Shown here: one piece after another, positions 2,283 to 9,740 of the stretch
Layout: each line of letters starts with the position of its first letter
How positions within the stretch are numbered: position 1 is the first letter of the stretch
Origin: a virus
DNA: 30,275 bases
Strand: one strand, 5' to 3'
Virus record (IMG/VR): IMGVR_UViG_3300035680_000062
Location: 1-30,275 of that record
Notes under the pieces: generated by a model
Told to the model about the DNA's origin: nothing
Databases searched by the model: none
Seen by the model: only the letters and a program-made list of their open reading frames with translations
Program-made: the position numbers and the translations under genes

Positions 2283-3059
2283 CTATACTCCGCACATCCC
2301 TTCGCATTCATTGATAAACATATTGACTTGACCATGTTCTTCTTCATTCCTAAAGTCTATCTCATCAAGAGGCTTGCAGCTTCTATGCATATATTGCTGA
2401 GACTTAAAACCGGGCTGATTCCTTATTGCTTTGTCAATTAACACGGCATCTGCAAACTCTTCAGAGCTTAAAGCTCTCCATTGGTCATTGCTATGGTAAG
2501 GGCATCCAATACATGAAGACTTCGGCGGCTTTGGGAATCCTTTTGATTGCATCCAATTTAAGCAATCTATTCGTGACATACCTTTGTCTATCAATGGGTA
2601 TTGATTTTTGATATATTGCACTTTTGAAGGCTTCATTCTATGCGCTTCGTCAGTGCTTATTCCAATAAGCATTGTGCATCCGCCTTTAGGCCTTCCACCT
2701 AATATCTCCACTACTTTTCTTTGTAATGGTCGGATCTTATACTCACCTGTGCATTGCCTCATTCCCATCCCCTTTTGTCCTTTTTCATTCAAAGTATACC
2801 ATGGGATCGCTGCAAGTCTTTCGTTATTGCCATCGGCTTTGCTTAAAATATCACTTCGTATATTCCCTGCATTTACACGATATACAGGATACGGCAATTG
2901 AGTCTCTAACCAATCAAGCCAATCGTATACGGCTTTTGGTTCCCATCCTGTATCGCTAAAAATAGCACAATCAACAGTATAGGGTAACTCATTCAAAGCA
3001 GCCATCAAAGCAAGTGTCGAAGATTGAACACCAGCGCCAAGAGAAAGTATTTTACTCAT
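2283..3059 (-). CDS. PAPS reductase / DndC-like ATP pyrophosphatase family protein
   Basis: This 258-residue protein opens with the ATP-pyrophosphatase loop SLGAGVQSSTLALM (residues 6-19). RQCTGEYKIRP (101-111), SSCIGCPYH (181-189) and a C-terminal CEGMCG follow, giving several cysteines that could hold an iron-sulfur cluster. This is the phage-borne phosphoadenosine-phosphosulfate reductase-like group, related to DndC and to tRNA thiolation enzymes. Its members activate a substrate by adenylation and then reduce it or insert sulfur. Its place between DNA methyltransferase and nuclease genes, away from any sulfur-assimilation gene, makes nucleic-acid modification a reasonable guess. The reaction is not proven. 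Its start overlaps the end of the 53-residue gene by 8 bases. Confidence 0.78.
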   Translation of the reverse strand: MSKILSLGAGVQSSTLALMAALNELPYTVDCAIFSDTGWEPKAVYDWLDWLETQLPYPVYRVNAGNIRSDILSKADGNNERLAAIPWYTLNEKGQKGMGMRQCTGEYKIRPLQRKVVEILGGRPKGGCTMLIGISTDEAHRMKPSKVQYIKNQYPLIDKGMSRIDCLNWMQSKGFPKPPKSSCIGCPYHSNDQWRALSSEEFADAVLIDKAIRNQPGFKSQQYMHRSCKPLDEIDFRNEEEHGQVNMFINECEGMCGV

Positions 3060-3213
3060 TTAGCAAATAATCCATCATTGCGTAAAACTTAGGACTCCAT
3101 CTTAGTAACTCTGCAAGCCAAGCGAATAGCATAACCCTTGCAATATCATGAGAGACGCCGTATTCCATGACTATGTCGTCAATCATATCATTAAGCCATT
3201 GCTCGGTAGTCAT
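3052..3213 (-). CDS. Small hypothetical protein, 53 aa
   Basis: This short frame exactly fills the gap between the nuclease-like gene and the PAPS-reductase-like gene. Its ATG at 3213 overlaps the upstream stop as ATGA, and its end overlaps the next start as ATGAGTAA. The 53-residue product begins MTTEQWLNDMIDDIVMEYG and reads as two amphipathic helices with a hydrophobic centre (ARVMLFAWLAELLRW). It lacks a strong membrane segment. The overlaps on both sides are the main support for a real gene. No function can be given. Confidence 0.6.
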   Translation of the reverse strand: MTTEQWLNDMIDDIVMEYGVSHDIARVMLFAWLAELLRWSPKFYAMMDYLLNE

Positions 3214-3623
3214 TTCGGTAATATATTGAAAGTTGAGATATCAAATATTATTCTTTTACCAGTCTTGGTCAAGACTTTTTTATCATCAGGTAAATCATTT
3301 AGGACATCCAAATATTGCCAATAGACAATCTCATCGTCAGTATCATACACGAATAATACTGCCCTTGCATCTATACGCTTTGCAAACTCAAGTCTTTTCT
3401 GCATTTGATACGGCGGTAATCCATGACCGTCAAAAGGGTAGTCGGGTAATCGCTTTGTAAACTTCTCTTGTGACTTCACTTCGCATATAAAGTAATTACC
3501 ATCCTTTTCGCAGACTATGTCTATTTGCATAAAGTCGTATTTACTCTTTGCAAGATAATCCCTAACAATACCCTCGCCAATAAAGCCCTTGCGTATCTCT
3601 TCTAATGAATCATCAAAGTTCAT
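3210..3623 (-). CDS. PD-(D/E)xK nuclease-like protein, 137 aa
   Basis: The N-terminal half has the spacing of a restriction-endonuclease-like fold: E17 in GFIGEGIV, D35 in QIDIVCEKDG, and E48-V-K50 in FICEVKSQ. A conserved-looking GLPPYQMQKRLEF helix follows. The product could be a Holliday-junction resolvase-like or restriction-type enzyme. It is coupled by ATGA to the DNA methyltransferase gene upstream, which raises the possibility of a restriction-modification pair. The family is too divergent to decide by eye. Confidence is good for the fold and low for the function. Confidence 0.65.
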   Translation of the reverse strand: MNFDDSLEEIRKGFIGEGIVRDYLAKSKYDFMQIDIVCEKDGNYFICEVKSQEKFTKRLPDYPFDGHGLPPYQMQKRLEFAKRIDARAVLFVYDTDDEIVYWQYLDVLNDLPDDKKVLTKTGKRIIFDISTFNILPK

Positions 3624-4825
3624 AATCTGCTCTTAATTAAATCAACATACTTACTCTCTATCTCTATCCCAGTGCATTTTCTATTTGTATTCTTTGCTGC
3701 CACTAATGTACTTCCACCACCAGCAAAAGGATCAAGAATTAAGTCATTCTCTTTTGTGCTTTTCTTAATCAAATATTCTAGCATATCCAAGGGCTTCTCA
3801 GTTGGGTGAATCATCTTTGCAGGGTCGCATCGGTTGTAATAAAGAATATCTCTATCTCTTGTGCCATTCAAATCTCGCCATACTTTATTTATGCCAAAAT
3901 ACACAACATCGAAAGACTTGCCATAAGACTTCAAATCTCCCATTCCAATAACTCGCCTGTCCCATATAAGTATATTTTTCAATGTTAAGTATTTTTCAAT
4001 TATTGGACGCAATTCTCCAATATAATCTATACTTCCAAATAGGTAAAAGTGAGCATCGTCTTTTAAGTGCTTTACTGATTTCGATAGTACACTTTCAAAA
4101 AGCTCAATAGTATCATCAATCTTATCATTAGCAATCTTTTCTTTATCGCTCCATCCGGACTTAAAATCCATGCCGTACGGCGGATCACTTAACAAAAGAT
4201 CAAACTTTGGTCCGTCGTAACTTTGCAAGTATTCTCTTGAATCTGCATGAATGATAATCTGGTCTATATTTTTGGGCTTGATTTCAGCATTGAAAGTGGT
4301 CTTAGCTTCTTCAAACTTAAATTTCTTATCCCTCTCTTTCACCACCTGCAGTACCGCCGTTCTTGTAGCAAGATCATCATTCTCTCGTGCCTCTTGCTTG
4401 ATCTGCTCAACTATCTCTTTGTTAGCGGCGAGGGTTTGAAAGCGATGCACTTGTTTTCTATCAAAGCCTAATTTCTCAACGGCTTGTTCTTTGGTTTCGA
4501 TAGGGGCTTGTGTAGAAGTGCCAAATGTTCCAGCAGTGGAACTTTTGCCACCCGTGTATTGATTGCCTCTATCACCACCACTCGCCTTTGGCATCCTCGC
4601 CAATATCTCACCAATCTTTACCTCGGCATCAAGAAGCGCCTCGGCTAACATTTGAGCCTCTTCTTTCTTTTGCTGGCGAACGCCCTCAGCTACATCAAGC
4701 TTATCAAGCGCCTTGATACCAGCCCTCACCATCGCGAGCTTATCGCGTCCAACAAGCACAAACTGAGCAAGGTCTTCAATCTTGCTAGGTAAATTACTCT
4801 CTACTCTCATCACTCCATTACTCAT
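3620..4825 (-). CDS. DNA methyltransferase with N-terminal ParB-like regulatory domain
   Basis: The C-terminal half (residues about 185-401) is an amino-methyltransferase that modifies adenine N6 or cytosine N4. The catalytic DPPYG is at 214-218, HPTEKP at 340-345 and the AdoMet-binding DPFAGGGST at 365-373. The catalytic motif comes before the AdoMet motif, as in beta-type enzymes. Residues about 10-170 form a separate helical part. It includes GEILARMPKASGGDRGNQ and a segment, KLGFDRKQVHRFQTLA, resembling the DNA-reading helix-turn-helix of ParB-like phage regulators, so this is a fusion. It may protect phage DNA from host restriction or work with the nuclease gene that overlaps its stop. 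The start overlaps the helicase stop as ATGA. Confidence 0.85.
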   Translation of the reverse strand: MSNGVMRVESNLPSKIEDLAQFVLVGRDKLAMVRAGIKALDKLDVAEGVRQQKKEEAQMLAEALLDAEVKIGEILARMPKASGGDRGNQYTGGKSSTAGTFGTSTQAPIETKEQAVEKLGFDRKQVHRFQTLAANKEIVEQIKQEARENDDLATRTAVLQVVKERDKKFKFEEAKTTFNAEIKPKNIDQIIIHADSREYLQSYDGPKFDLLLSDPPYGMDFKSGWSDKEKIANDKIDDTIELFESVLSKSVKHLKDDAHFYLFGSIDYIGELRPIIEKYLTLKNILIWDRRVIGMGDLKSYGKSFDVVYFGINKVWRDLNGTRDRDILYYNRCDPAKMIHPTEKPLDMLEYLIKKSTKENDLILDPFAGGGSTLVAAKNTNRKCTGIEIESKYVDLIKSRL

Positions 4826-6243
4826 ACCAAATGCCTCGTTTTATCTTTGTGAATGAATAGCCAGCCTCTCGCATATCCCATCGCATCTCGGTAAGCCTCG
4901 GCTTCAGTTCGCAATTTACACAAACTTTGCAGAACATACAAAGGATGTAATTTGCCCGCCTTGGTTAGTGCTATCCAATCCGGCAAGCCTCCAAGCCGTG
5001 CCATCTCGCGAGCCTCATGCTTTGTCAATATAACTAACTCTTCTAGAACTTCGCGTTCTGTTTTCGGGATAAGTTTTCCACACTCCGAGCAAACTCTTGC
5101 ACTGGCATATAGGAACGCGTCGCAATGAATGCAATTCTTGTAAACTGCCAAACCGTCCCGCTTCTTCTTTGGTGGCTTAGTCCAATCTCTAGAATCGTCC
5201 CACATTCCAAAACGGTAAAGGTTATTCCCGAAGTCCAAGACCGTGAATTTGTCCTTACCCTCGCAAGTCCGAGAGCCGCGTCCTACCATCTGAAGAAACA
5301 ACGGCAAACTCTTGGTAGCTCGGTATAAAATTACCGTCTCAATACTCGGCTCGTCAAAACCTGTGGTAAAAAGCCCTACATTGATTAAAACCGCGGCGGG
5401 TGTCTCTTTATACCACTTAAGAGCGTTTCGCCTCTCTACGCGCCCCGCAGATCCGTCTAATGATATTACAGGGTGTCCCGCCTTCTTAAATTCTGCATAG
5501 AGTTCAGCCGCGCTCTTCAAATTCGGCGCAAAAGCTATCGCCTTTGTATTCGGTGTCCATCGTTGGTAGTTTTGCACGGCTCCCTTGAATATCTGCATTC
5601 TTGAGTATTCGGCTCCTAGTGAATCAGCATCAAAGTCATTGCCTTTGGTTTTTACGCCGCTTAAATCGATAGGCACGGAATAGTAAGAAGGCTTGGCTAA
5701 GTAGCCATCGGAGATAAGGCTCGGAATAGTTGAAGCTTCGACCATGTGAGTATAGATGTCGGTCAACGGCGTTCCCTTCCCCTCTCGGTATGGCGTGGCC
5801 GTCGCTCCGAGCACTCTCGCATGAGAGGGAAGAAGAGGGAAGAGCTTGTCGAATGTTCGCTTATGGCATTCATCAAATATGAATAAGTCAACGCTCTGAA
5901 GTAGTTCGCTGTAGATCCGCTGTTCAGCTCGGCGGTATATCGTCTCGATCATAGCGACAAAGATTCGCTGGCTTGAGTTAACTCTGGTAGTCTCGGCGGT
6001 AATAAGCTCGGGAACGATAGCAAGGTTGTTAAGCGCCCCGCCTGCTTGCCATAGCAGCTCGCCTCGGTCGGTCAAGATCATGACTCTTTTGCCTTTCTGC
6101 AATGCGCTTTGTGCAATAGCAGAGAACATTATTGTCTTACCAGCTCCAGTCGGAGCGCAAAGAATTACTTTTTTATGGCCATCAGCATAGGCTTGTCGAA
6201 GGTTTTGGATAGCAATTTCTTGGTATGGTCTAAGTGAAATCAT
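4822..6243 (-). CDS. SF2 DEAD/DEAH-type helicase with C-terminal zinc-binding motif
   Basis: This 473-residue helicase opens with RPYQEIAIQNL (Q-motif region). The P-loop APTGAGKT is at residues 30-37, motif II DECH at 124-127, motif III GATATPYR at 146-153, and the motif VI segment QMVGRGSRT lies near residue 330. Four cysteines in two CxxC pairs (CIHC and CSEC) near the C-terminus suggest a zinc ribbon. Phage proteins of this type unwind DNA or branched structures during replication or recombination. ATG 6243 has no Shine-Dalgarno sequence. Instead it sits directly beside tandem CTTACTACA repeats, so its expression may be controlled by whatever binds them. Confidence 0.88.
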   Translation of the reverse strand: MISLRPYQEIAIQNLRQAYADGHKKVILCAPTGAGKTIMFSAIAQSALQKGKRVMILTDRGELLWQAGGALNNLAIVPELITAETTRVNSSQRIFVAMIETIYRRAEQRIYSELLQSVDLFIFDECHKRTFDKLFPLLPSHARVLGATATPYREGKGTPLTDIYTHMVEASTIPSLISDGYLAKPSYYSVPIDLSGVKTKGNDFDADSLGAEYSRMQIFKGAVQNYQRWTPNTKAIAFAPNLKSAAELYAEFKKAGHPVISLDGSAGRVERRNALKWYKETPAAVLINVGLFTTGFDEPSIETVILYRATKSLPLFLQMVGRGSRTCEGKDKFTVLDFGNNLYRFGMWDDSRDWTKPPKKKRDGLAVYKNCIHCDAFLYASARVCSECGKLIPKTEREVLEELVILTKHEAREMARLGGLPDWIALTKAGKLHPLYVLQSLCKLRTEAEAYRDAMGYARGWLFIHKDKTRHLV

Positions 6244-6486
6244 AATGTAGTAAGTGTAGTAAGAGTGTAGTAAGAGTTTTTTAAGTCTTACTACATCGTA
6301 AATTGTTGTAATTTAGTGACTTACATAAGTGTAGTAAGTGTAGTAAGTAATTATTTAAAATAAACTATTATAGAATAATAAGAGTACTAGTATATTGGCC
6401 TATATGTATATGTAATTGTATAATAGTTTTAGGCCTTTTTTTTGCTAAGTCTTACTACATTTTGAATAGGGCAATTTTTGTTAAAT
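6244..6486. other. Non-coding AT-rich region, candidate replication origin or operator
   Basis: This is the largest gene-free stretch in the window. It separates the primase-helicase gene from the SF2 helicase gene. It combines clustered 9-bp repeats, a very AT-rich core at about 6348-6430 and an inverted pair GGCCTA (6398-6403) / TAGGCC (6430-6435). A T8 run follows that pair on the plus strand. A minus-strand TATAAT is at 6367-6372 but lacks a good -35 box. Repeats plus an AT-rich segment beside primase and helicase genes fit a phage origin. Autoregulation of the helicase gene is the alternative, and both may apply. Confidence 0.5.
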
Positions 6487-6522
6487 TTACCCATTAATAC
6501 CGTAGTAGGATGGTGTAGTAAG
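6246..6522. repeat. Eight-copy iteron array, TGTAGTAAG
   Basis: Exact plus-strand copies of TGTAGTAAG begin at 6246, 6255, 6266, 6330, 6339 and 6514. Exact inverted copies (CTTACTACA) lie at 6287-6295 and 6451-6459. The copies at 6246/6255 and 6330/6339 are directly abutting pairs. The two inverted copies share a longer 15-bp block (TAAGTCTTACTACAT, at 6282-6296 and 6446-6460). The copy at 6514 lies inside the 3' end of the primase gene. Such clustering is characteristic of initiator or repressor binding sites. Confidence 0.85.
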
Positions 6523-8700
6523 GACTTGTTTTACCTTGTAACACTTCACCGGCTTGCCATTTCGGCGCTTGGTGATCCTCTCGAAGCCTAAATTCTTCAT
6601 TGCGATACCAACCCTTTGCGGATTGAAGTGGAGCTTTGTAAATTGCATCATATGTGCAATTATTTCGGTTGTTGTCTTACAATTCTCTTCGGATGAATCA
6701 TCTGTTTGCGTAAAAAACATCATGATTGATTCTTCGACTGTATCGATTTGCTCATTATATGCAGATAGCTGGTTAAGTGTTTCAATATCAGCCTTAGTGA
6801 GTTGCCAAGAGCTATTACCTTCAGTGTGATAGATGCGATATGCTTCCATGAATAAGTCCGCCTTGTCGATTGCATTATATGCGTCAAAGTCAATAGACTT
6901 TATGTTTAGGGGCACGATACGGCGGTTCCCTGTAGGGTCGTTTATGATCTCAAGGTCATTTGAAGTCCCTGAAAGCACGGCATAGCGTGTAAAGTCCTGC
7001 GTAGTGCGTCCATACGGCAATCTAAGAGTAATTGTTTGCTTTGAACTTATGTCTTTAATATGCTTGTATTCAGATTTGGATTTCCCGGAGAATTCGTCAT
7101 CACAAATAATCAGTTTTTTACACATGAGGACTTCATCGTCTTTCCCTCGGTCAAGTTTTGACTCTGCATAGTAGTTAATTAGCTCTTTTGGTAGTAACCA
7201 ACGAAAGAAATTAGTCTTTCCTATCCCTTGACCACCAACTAAGACCAGGATTAAGAGAGAATAAGTACCGTGCATGGATGCAACGATTGATACTATCCAC
7301 TTTTGCAGGAATCTATGTGCATAAGCCTCGTATTCTTCGTATGGAGCACCTTGATTATCAAAGGTTATACAATTAGCTAATTTTTCTATGCAGTTTTGGG
7401 CTGTTTTACTCTTATGTAACTCAAAAAACTCTAAAAATGGGTTGTATGTAGGTATAAAGTCCGAGTAAATAATGGCATTAAAGTATGTTTGCGTGCATTT
7501 AGGCCCAAGAGACTCGGTCAATTGGATGTAAATGCTATTCATATCTGTATCAGTAATCGCTTTGCCTTTATATTCGATTTCATGAGTTAATTCATTGCGT
7601 TTGAGATCAAACTCTTTTAGCATTACCTTCATAAGAGGTATGATATTATCGTCTTTTTCCTTTTTGAGTTGCTCTTTGGGTGTATTTATGACTTTCTCTG
7701 CTATTTCCAGCGCTTCTTTTGGGTCTTCGCCTTCAGATTCGGCAAGTTTACCAACAGAGCGCTTGATATCATCTTTACTCATGCGTCCATTACGCACCAT
7801 TGAAGTAGCTGCAGCCTCCCACTTCTTTGTTCTTTCTGTTTGAATGTCAATGTTATACTTTTTGCATAGATAGAATAGAGTTCCAATACCTATGACCCCT
7901 TTATTAGTTGCAAGGATATTGTCATACTTCTTATCAGTCTTTTGAGCGTCGTATTTATTGCTATTGATTTCAGATATTTGGTGAAAGAAGTCGCGGCCGC
8001 GTTCACCATATTCGGTAGCGAGTGCTCTACCGACATTAACCCAATCGCCATAGTCATTCACTAAATCGATGCGTCTTGCTCGGAGTTGTTTGATCATGTG
8101 CTCTACATCCGGTTCGATTATGGCGTGCATAACCTTTGGCGCTGTTTGAACTACTTTCTTTCTATATCGTGTGAATACTGGTACTTTATCCGGATCATTA
8201 GTGACTATGTTAGGATCATAGGATATAAAACGCAATCGGCTTATATCTTTGCATGATGGATCGCATTCGAGTTGATAGTTTTCCAGTAGATAGTCTTCAA
8301 GGCCTTCGAATGATTCGAGGTGCTTGTTTGGGTCAATCTTAAAATAAGCAGCGTATCCATAGCCTCCGAGTGACATATGAAGTGCTAGGATATGCTTATC
8401 GGCTCGGAGCTTGTCAATCTTTTCATTTATGTCTATATTGTCTTGATCATCGATATCCATGCAGATGACGCCGTTATGTTTGACCAGTGATGCGACGCCT
8501 CTGCCTTGGAACTCTCCTGACATTGCAAAAGCTGGCATTTTGCTTTTAGCGGCTTTTTGTTCTTCTTTGGTTTTCATATTACGGTAGGGAGTTACTATAT
8601 CCTCCCACCTCCCTCTTTTGATATCCCAAAAAAACTGCACAATGTCTCTGAAGTCCTTTTGTTCAGTAGCTTGTGCGCTGGTGTATTCAGTGATTCTCAT
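6487..8700 (-). CDS. Primase-helicase: BT4734-like N-terminus, PriCT-2-like middle, VirE-like helicase
   Basis: This 737-residue multidomain replication protein has three parts. Residues 1-185 resemble the BT4734-like N-terminal domain; MDIDDQD at 81-87 could bind the metals of a primase-polymerase fold. Residues about 195-285 (DYGDWVNVGRALATEYG) resemble Primase C-terminal 2. Residues about 400-650 are a VirE-type superfamily 3 helicase/ATPase, with P-loop GGQGIGKT at 489-496, acidic motif LIICDDEF at 530-537, sensor LSGTSND at 576-582 and arginine segment GNRRIVPL at 591-598. It probably both primes and unwinds phage DNA. It is coupled by ATGA to the DnaA-like gene upstream and ends at the candidate origin, which supports a replication-initiation module. 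Confidence 0.87.
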   Translation of the reverse strand: MRITEYTSAQATEQKDFRDIVQFFWDIKRGRWEDIVTPYRNMKTKEEQKAAKSKMPAFAMSGEFQGRGVASLVKHNGVICMDIDDQDNIDINEKIDKLRADKHILALHMSLGGYGYAAYFKIDPNKHLESFEGLEDYLLENYQLECDPSCKDISRLRFISYDPNIVTNDPDKVPVFTRYRKKVVQTAPKVMHAIIEPDVEHMIKQLRARRIDLVNDYGDWVNVGRALATEYGERGRDFFHQISEINSNKYDAQKTDKKYDNILATNKGVIGIGTLFYLCKKYNIDIQTERTKKWEAAATSMVRNGRMSKDDIKRSVGKLAESEGEDPKEALEIAEKVINTPKEQLKKEKDDNIIPLMKVMLKEFDLKRNELTHEIEYKGKAITDTDMNSIYIQLTESLGPKCTQTYFNAIIYSDFIPTYNPFLEFFELHKSKTAQNCIEKLANCITFDNQGAPYEEYEAYAHRFLQKWIVSIVASMHGTYSLLILVLVGGQGIGKTNFFRWLLPKELINYYAESKLDRGKDDEVLMCKKLIICDDEFSGKSKSEYKHIKDISSKQTITLRLPYGRTTQDFTRYAVLSGTSNDLEIINDPTGNRRIVPLNIKSIDFDAYNAIDKADLFMEAYRIYHTEGNSSWQLTKADIETLNQLSAYNEQIDTVEESIMMFFTQTDDSSEENCKTTTEIIAHMMQFTKLHFNPQRVGIAMKNLGFERITKRRNGKPVKCYKVKQVLTTPSYYGING

Positions 8701-9137
8701 GCCTTGGCCTTGCGAATAAGTTGTAAGTAGATTTCGTTGAAGTTCGGGTCTAGTATGCGCTCGTGTTTGATATTTCGGGCTGCAATTATAGGTAATTTAC
8801 GATCGCAATTAAATATAAAAGCGATATCCGTCATTGTGAATGCAAAGTCTTGATAGCATATTGTTATTGCCACATGGCGCGCAAAGCTTTGGCGCTGGTG
8901 GATATGCTGAACTGATACGCCGTAATATTCTGCGACTACTTCAATAACCCGCTCGGATACTTCATAGAGTTGGGCCGTGTTCAGTTTTCGAACACGCCCG
9001 CGCGGTTTCTTTGTTCGATTTCCGAACAATTCCTCGCGTTCTATTTTAAGAATCGCAGAAAGCGGGAGCGTAGCCAGCGGCTTAGGGTTTGTATCTTGCG
9101 CGAGATCACTGATGTGACCGATCGGATGTAAGGGCAT
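8697..9137 (-). CDS. DnaA domain IV-like DNA-binding protein with shared N-terminal motif
   Basis: Residues about 55-146 follow the layout of the DnaA C-terminal DNA-binding domain. VIEVVAEYYGVSVQHIHQ leads into a helix with RQSFARHVAITI. DIAFIFNCDRKLPIIAARNI then corresponds to the family's IG-x-x-F-x-x-RDHSTV recognition helix, although the RDHS signature is not intact. PLSAILKIEREEL (residues 25-37) is a diverged copy of the motif found in the next three upstream genes. A basic, AT-hook-like KKPRGRVRK follows it. ATG 9137 has GAGG seven bases upstream. Immediately before the primase gene, it is a strong candidate for an origin-binding protein. Confidence 0.7.
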   Translation of the reverse strand: MPLHPIGHISDLAQDTNPKPLATLPLSAILKIEREELFGNRTKKPRGRVRKLNTAQLYEVSERVIEVVAEYYGVSVQHIHQRQSFARHVAITICYQDFAFTMTDIAFIFNCDRKLPIIAARNIKHERILDPNFNEIYLQLIRKAKA

Positions 9138-9176: not shown

Positions 9177-9740
9177 TCACGATCTAAATTGTTCATGTCG
9201 AGTCCAGAGATAGTCTTCGATTTTTTGGGCTGTTAGTTGCACTTGCGAGTAAGTATCGAGCTCGTCCATAGCCGCGTAAATATGATGCGAAAGAGTCGAG
9301 CGATTCATGTTTAGGTATTCGGCGATCTTGAATGATGTAAGCTTCAGATATACGGTTGCAAAGAATATAAACATCCGCTTTGCTGCTATTAGCTCTTGGA
9401 ATCTTACCTTGTCTCTAAGAGTGTGATTTGTTGGAAAGTGTTTGAGCACTTCGACTTCAAGCCCGGATAGCTCCGCGTATGGATTTGCGAAGGCAAAGTC
9501 TATGCCTCGTTTCATAAAGTGAGCGCTTTTGGTTTTGTGGTTAATTTGAGCGTATTGAAGCTGCGGCCTCTTTTGTTTTGCAAAGTAATAATCTGCAAGT
9601 TTGTTGTTAGTTTTTATCGCTTGGTTTGCTTTGCGTTCGAGTTCTTCGCGTTCCTCTCGTAGTTGCTCTGATAGGCTTTTGCCTTTGATGAAGGGGGTCG
9701 GTAGACCTTCCCCCTCATCTAGTAAAAACACTGAATTCAT
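9177..9740 (-). CDS. Shared-motif protein with DnaA-C-like helix-turn-helix, 187 aa
   Basis: The N-terminus carries KGKSLSEQLREEREELERKA (residues 19-38), nearly the same motif as in the two genes upstream. After a basic linker, residues about 85-170 form a helical domain. Its ELIAAKRMFIFFATVYLKL and FKIAEYLNMNRSTLSHHI read as the two core helices and recognition helix of a DnaA domain IV-type helix-turn-helix (compare 'IA..L...RSTV.H'). It begins by ATGA overlap with the RHH gene, with GAGG in front. It probably binds DNA, perhaps the repeats at 6246-6522. It is not obviously a recent duplicate of the 146-residue gene, because the two differ in most positions. Confidence 0.68.
   Translation of the reverse strand: MNSVFLLDEGEGLPTPFIKGKSLSEQLREEREELERKANQAIKTNNKLADYYFAKQKRPQLQYAQINHKTKSAHFMKRGIDFAFANPYAELSGLEVEVLKHFPTNHTLRDKVRFQELIAAKRMFIFFATVYLKLTSFKIAEYLNMNRSTLSHHIYAAMDELDTYSQVQLTAQKIEDYLWTRHEQFRS

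Follow-up and report, generated by a model that had tools for sequence, protein, structure and literature searches.

Where does a phage known from its sequence begin to copy its DNA, and which protein reads that start site? A cluster of short repeats between two helicase genes raises this question in the viral record IMGVR_UViG_3300035680_000062, whose whole stretch of 30,275 nucleotides is called the window here. This contig of a tailed phage encodes capsid, protease and portal proteins at 26.6-30.2 kb, and the host presumably belongs to the phylum Bacteroidota. Judged from sequence, the repeat cluster is very probably the start site of phage DNA replication. Specifically, we put at about 85% the probability that positions 6246-6522 are the origin and that the adjacent 737-residue primase-helicase is a self-loading initiator whose winged helix reads the TGTAGTAAG iterons. 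A preliminary description of this DNA had already named the region a candidate origin, a proposal now supported by its position, its AT-rich core, its presence in relatives, its conserved layout and the kinship of the adjacent protein to PriRep1 of SaPI5.

The exact word TGTAGTAAG occurs eight times within the 277 bases from 6246 to 6522, six times forward and twice inverted, which agrees with the earlier count. Only 0.23 exact copies are expected in the window, and eight were reached in none of 100 shuffles. A count of the 9-mer elsewhere had been suggested as a check, and the rest of the 30,275-base record, which may be a fragment, holds no exact copy. With one mismatch allowed, the window has 11 matches against 5.9 expected, and the signal is therefore the exact word. 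All eight iterons were placed by exact match. Iterons 1 and 2 abut on the plus strand (6246-6254 and 6255-6263), followed by iteron 3 (6266-6274, plus), the inverted iteron 4 (6287-6295, minus) and the abutting iterons 5 and 6 (6330-6338 and 6339-6347, both plus); the two tandem pairs described before, starting at 6246/6255 and 6330/6339, are thus real. Beyond the core lie the inverted iteron 7 (6451-6459, minus) and iteron 8 (6514-6522, plus). The core itself (6348-6450), a candidate unwinding element between two iteron blocks that recurs at the same place in relatives, spans 103 bases, is 80% AT and has iterons on both sides. It deserves to be called very AT-rich, as it was, since the AT-richest 50-mer of the window starts at 6348; the AT-richest 100-mer starts at 6344. 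The earlier description called the region intergenic, which is not wholly correct. Iteron 8 (6514-6522) falls within the 3'-terminal part of the primase ORF (6487-8700), and iteron 1 begins at a distance of 2 bases from the start codon (ATG) of the SF2 helicase.

This closeness of the first iteron to a start codon also fits a reading in which the repeats are operators for a phage regulator, perhaps the initiator, that controls transcription of the SF2 helicase gene, with no origin at the site. Promoter-like sites are present in the AT-rich core, in a number at chance level; Rfam and tRNA scans were empty, and no terminator-like site was found. An operator function is harder to reconcile with eight sites spread over 277 bases round the AT-richest stretch of the window, with a layout that is kept across word classes, with a word that moves together with the helicase and tail module of the primase, and with iterons that also lie 3' of VapE genes in phages in which the next gene is a different one. 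As such, we regard operators in place of an origin as unlikely, and autoregulation may exist alongside origin function.

The genes under discussion here all lie on the minus strand. The candidate initiator (6487-8700) stands just upstream of the repeats in the sense of transcription, and the SF2 (ResIII/DEAD) helicase gene, assigned with Pfam, occupies 4822-6243. A DNA methyltransferase gene at 3620-4825 comes after the SF2 helicase gene in the same operon-like run, and the left end of the window encodes galactosyltransferase-like and methyltransferase-like proteins (180-815 and 1366-1947). In the 737-residue protein, Pfam recognizes BT4734-like_N, PriCT_2 and VapE-like domains (VapE-like E 8e-31), the last being a VapE/D5-type SF3 helicase, and PHROGs labels the protein 'DNA primase'. 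No TOPRIM domain is matched by Pfam in this protein, which has BT4734-like_N and PriCT_2 instead. A sequence profile built from eight relatives matched a single chain sequence in the PDB, 7pds, with an E value of 2e-13.

Structure prediction points in the same direction. An AlphaFold model of the last 98 residues, built from 28 sequences and with a pLDDT of 90 or more in 62 of them, folds into three helices and a two-stranded wing, that is, a winged helix (residues about 674-722, encoded at 6535-6681 on the minus strand), which on this model and on the covariation described below is the proposed iteron reader. Compared with the PDB, the tail model matches RFX5 best (Z 8.4), with other winged helices such as RFX1 (Z 7.2) close by and the two best matches, RFX5 and Zur, less than 1 Z apart. 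The origin-binding domain of P4, 1ka8, is absent from the matches listed in this Z-scored comparison and is a weak match in Foldseek (rank 27, E 0.66, TM 0.42). A second model, of helicase plus tail (16 sequences, pLDDT 83.6), has all six chains of 7pds, the SaPI5 PriRep1 structure with dsDNA, as its best matches, the top chain with an E value of 1e-16 over 447 columns.

If the repeats belong to the initiator, they should accompany its gene in other phages. An IMG/VR scan with the eight-sequence alignment found 158 relatives, of which the best 80 were used, and a GTDB scan yielded 14 loci, all Bacteroidota by title, of which one, L213, was added to make 81 loci. Seven of the 81 were unusable, four being cut and three having short downstream DNA, and 74 remained. 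With iterons defined as one 9-mer present at least three times within 360 bases around the primase stop, 72 of these 74 loci have them (from the best 80 of 158 plus L213), compared with 1 of 68 upstream regions and 0 of 370 interior tiles of the same locus set. When only distinct tails are counted, the same set gives 39 of 40 at the stop, 0 of 36 upstream and 0 of 200 interior tiles. L148 and L149, which are one sequence type, have no word three times at the primase stop. Seven named phages were examined from among 179 records with a match: strong iterons follow the VapE gene on its 3' side in FPSV-S1, lotta8-2 and Streptococcus phage SMP, and no clear ones were found there in phi46:1, P12024S, P12024L and mymlan6-1. 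One of 31 plasmid records with a match, a Prevotella nigrescens plasmid, carries TACTACA five times.

A search was also started from the repeat. The tandem 18-mer occurs in 46 stretches and the reversed 18-mer in 40, so that raw abundance is uninformative. Both orientations within 600 bases are found in 35 of the 46 stretches, many of which are near-copies, and in 5 of the 40 controls; a VapE-like ORF lies within 1 kb in 28 of 46 and 3 of 40, respectively. Four of the 18 stretches that have no VapE match (L020, L026, L048 and L063) are cut contigs of the same kind. As a control the reversed 18-mer is imperfect, because its three VapE-positive stretches (L088, L101 and L104) have clusters with both orientations next to weak VapE matches. 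In these three and in L105, repeats of the reversed control word GAATGATGT run both ways, and with weak VapE-like ORFs near the repeats in L088, L101 and L104 this word perhaps marks another iteron class. Several further loci are unusual. In L031, an ORF at 3-380 with a C-terminus that looks D5-like by eye ends before TGTAGTAAG sites, possibly placing this word beside a different initiator family. In L032, the VapE ORF (2958-5760) stops within the winged helix, the remainder seems to lie in another frame, and two repeat blocks with different words follow. The primase C-termini of L192, L314 and L328 look frameshifted, with the winged helix out of frame and the iterons still there, through sequencing error or decay.

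Which protein reads the word can be approached by asking what changes when the word does. In the window's phage group, whose neighbouring genes are near-identical, the word has at least five forms, and these track the C-terminus of the primase. L009 and L012 carry TGTAGTAAG, and L011 carries [TC]GTCTCCAG. Compared with L011, the first two agree at mostly 88-100% of nucleotides in the upstream genes and in the initial 1.2 kb of the primase gene (83% in the lowest 150-nt tile), at 42-82% in the part that encodes helicase and tail and holds the iterons, and again at mostly at least 87% in the SF2 helicase gene. A finer switch separates GTAGTA from GTGGTA cores: the former make up 8 of 8 in L013, L015 and L018, the latter 8 of 8 in L014, L016, L017 and L019, and no locus is mixed. 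The word of L014 is TGTGGTAAG. Five primase positions (264, 400, 688, 717 and 735) separate the TGTAGTAAG from the TGTGGTAAG set when the window, L009, L010 and L012 are grouped with the TGTAGTAAG phages. T688S and P717S fall in the winged helix, position 735 in the end tail beyond it, and 264 and 400 outside the tail; the TGTGGTAAG switch is probably one event.

The same comparisons speak against the readers proposed before. The preliminary description had suggested that the repeats are recognized by two nearby proteins with DnaA-C-like domains, of 146 residues (8697-9137, minus strand) and 187 residues (9177-9740, minus strand), and that the repeat resembles a DnaA box. Matches to DnaA-C do exist, but at 23.4 and 14.3 bits, the latter very weak, they stay below the Pfam cut-off of 31.5. 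A DnaA-like origin, at which these proteins or the host's DnaA would bind the repeats as degenerate DnaA boxes, can draw on these sub-threshold matches in both proteins, on the genes adjoining that of the primase, and on residues 73-74 of the 146-residue protein, which segregate with TGTAGTAAG and TGTGGTAAG in the set above. However, the same residues at 73-74 occur with several other words in other phages, and the 146-residue protein of L106 is 99% identical to that of the window and yet accompanied by the word TGTTGTCAG and a different tail. In the 187-residue protein, no position separates all TGTAGTAAG from all TGTGGTAAG phages. The box likeness fares no better: allowing one mismatch, TTATNCACA is found 24 times in the window against 30 expected, and not once in 6244-6522. 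An origin of this kind is thus highly improbable, and both proteins were rejected as readers. The SF2 helicase was likewise rejected, being 96.6-98.1% identical between L009/L012 and L011 despite their different words; SF2 helicases 79-80% identical to the window's accompany another tail and GGTAG-type sites in L250, L251, L253 and L254.

The 146-residue DnaA-C-like protein is strongly conserved across the phage group while the origin words differ, and in phi46:1 one gene carries the annotation 'putative DnaA protein'. Near either end, the 47,520-base contig 3300032050_006297 (L251 and L259) has an SF2-helicase/origin region, one with GGTAG-type iterons and the other with TGTAGTAAG; it is likely a chimeric assembly or two phages.

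A sharper view of the primase tail is offered by a natural minimal pair. The primases of L191 and L193 are identical at 694 of 711 residues, and their words are AGT(G/A)ACTA and AGTAACCA, respectively. Six of the 17 differences fall within the 51-residue winged helix (Fisher p 7e-4), four of the 17 within its 15-residue wing. The word AGTAACCA recurs in L180, which sits on a separate branch and shares the wing residues H-N...G; in a tree of the rest of the primase (39 rows), the starred branches force two separate occurrences of this word. The clean switches in the wing are P717S on the one hand and, on the other, VA to HN plus N to G, the latter found twice. Contact residues would lie in the winged helix, and we hypothesize, from these switch positions and the RFX-like fold, that specificity is read mainly by the wing; if the wing and not the recognition helix did the reading, the position of these switches would be accounted for.

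A further VapE/BT4734 scan listed the best 80 of 173 relatives. A wider comparison covered 82 unique loci; L192, L314 and L328, proteins shorter than 640 residues, repeat-less loci and exact duplicates had been left out. Among these, no pair that is more than 85% identical outside the tail and has tails at least 97% identical differs in its word, and among all pairs, tails that go with different words reach at most 95.9% identity. In pairs 85-99.9% identical outside the tail, which are not independent of one another, tails are on average 25.6 points less alike than the remainder of the protein when the words differ (n=43) and 12.7 points when they are shared (n=578). In a partial Mantel test on 39 loci, the word correlated with each of the primase domains (r 0.71-0.74), and the tail did not stand out among them. 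From the covariation as a whole we infer that the tail binds the iterons.

The arrangement of the sites, by comparison, hardly changes. Read in the sense of the primase gene, the window has a site at the gene end, a forward site, the AT core, a tandem reverse pair, a forward site and three reverse sites. With word patterns picked after seeing the words, 81 of 87 unique downstream regions proved to have four sites or more; L320 and L343 had been left out for their short downstream DNA, and the six regions with fewer than four sites were dropped from the layout comparison. Across word classes, the layout '> AT-core << > <<<' keeps its order and nearly its spacing, although the words differ widely, as do the primases of distant loci. 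Thus L334 (TGTAGTCA), L202 (GTGGTAAG), L250 (GGTAG) and L137 show the window's order at nearly its spacing, some without single sites; L213 and L340 are among the regions that depart from the common order. A search with the layout pattern returned 22 stretches, and a VapE ORF is near in 7 of the 17 that were inspected. Of those without a VapE match, L346 and L355 lie by PriCT_2 primases missed by the profile; the other neighbours, from 10 proteins scanned, are an integrase (L354), a GmrSD gene (L360), a TOPRIM protein (L352) or nothing recognized. A modular origin grammar, in which an array of about eight sites is fixed round an unwinding core and the word of 8-9 bases is wholly rewritten when a few residues of an RFX-like wing change, is a tentative generalization to which we give somewhat less than even odds.

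GC skew, proposed earlier as a check, gave a mixed answer. An upward change of skew across the site is seen in 64 of 66 loci, a set that includes many near-copies. In the window itself, the largest upward step lies at about 5,550-5,650 at all five window sizes (0.24-0.32, the next-best step at the same sizes being 0.08-0.19), that is, some 0.7 kb from the repeats and inside the SF2 helicase gene; the step at 6400 ranks only 29th to 190th. The skew agrees with a two-way origin nearby without placing it.

Short direct repeats near an AT-rich stretch are also known from partition and packaging sites, and the cluster could on this ground be a centromere-like partition site or a packaging site. No partition gene was found among the twenty window proteins scanned with Pfam, however, the capsid, protease and portal genes are far off, and the covariation is with the initiator; such a role has next to no likelihood. 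The reading as an origin is well supported, and a replicon of the SaPI5 PriRep1 type is the best explanation, with the P4 alpha protein as a functional cousin. PriRep1 is the best structural match over helicase and tail and the sole PDB sequence match (7pds). In SaPI Rep and in Cch2 of SCCmec, iterons are described directly downstream of the helicase gene (PMC7581432), as they lie in the window and in the 72 relatives above; as far as that description goes, these proteins also share with ours an SF3/D5-type helicase and a C-terminal DNA-binding domain, the latter predicted here. Unlike the SaPI replicons, the present ones have a BT4734-like N-terminus and PriCT_2, belong to tailed phages and not to satellites, show the eight-site layout, and have specificity classes that are exchanged among near-identical phages. 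P4 alpha is described as joining primase, helicase and a repeat-binding winged helix in one protein, with a primase of the TOPRIM type (PMC4234260). The likeness to this description is the union of all three parts in one chain, with primase function and winged helix predicted here; the difference is that the TOPRIM primase is P4's, and its 1ka8 domain is only a weak fold match.

Other systems share single features. In lambdoid phages, type-specific iterons in ori are paired with type-specific domains of the initiator O; there the iterons are part of the initiator gene itself, and O lacks a helicase. The word-tail pairing described here resembles this arrangement and differs from it in both respects. 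ASFV C962R and the NrS-1 protein are primase-helicases for which, to our knowledge, no iteron origin is known. Both resemble the present protein in joining SF3 helicase and tail, together with an AEP domain to which the N-terminus here may correspond, and in the account available the tail of C962R resembles the P4 domain and Rfx1, its direct DNA binding being called unclear (PMC10516667); the tail here is RFX-like too. The nearest parallel for the joint exchange of origin and reader comes from PLE satellites, for which a co-swap of origin and cognate DNA-binding domain between otherwise alike elements is reported, together with the Odn nuclease of phage ICP1 (PMC8263062). PLE RepA is described as a RepA_N protein, not a predicted primase or helicase (PMC7145576), and in these descriptions the PLE iterons are semi-palindromic and longer than those here, and swapping takes place in satellites under nuclease attack, whereas the swaps described here are among tailed phages. 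A literature search that covered subscription journals thinly found no earlier account of the origin family described here, of its site layout or of its classes of words; its match to the 9-mer, PMC9569500, was discarded, as it concerned only cloning primers for an archaeal shuttle vector.

The data point to a model in which the 737-residue primase-helicase, encoded just upstream of the repeats, acts as a self-loading initiator. Its C-terminal winged helix would bind the TGTAGTAAG iterons directly 3' of its own gene. By analogy with SaPI Rep, the two iteron blocks flanking the core would load SF3 helicase hexamers, whose rings would open the AT-rich DNA between them, and the N-terminal primase domain, to judge by the domain names, would then prime synthesis. 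The sequences show word and winged helix inherited and exchanged as one unit, and otherwise near-identical phages would therefore carry mutually foreign origins.

The kind of replicon is already known from PriRep1 of the SaPIs, and the natural specificity switches are the interesting part. In a large group of uncultured phages, the annotation of the primase usually goes no further than VapE or 'DNA primase'; for this group the analysis provides a mapped, testable candidate origin and initiator. A search 3' of the primase gene should reveal the origins of these phages in metagenomes. The natural minimal pairs, in which initiators of about 97-98% identity go with different words, could yield a protein-DNA specificity code for D5-type initiators. 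The exchange of word and reader suggests that origin identity is under diversifying selection, as has been argued for PLE satellites. If true, rapid switching of the word would keep co-infecting phages, satellites and origin-directed nucleases from using or cutting each other's origins.
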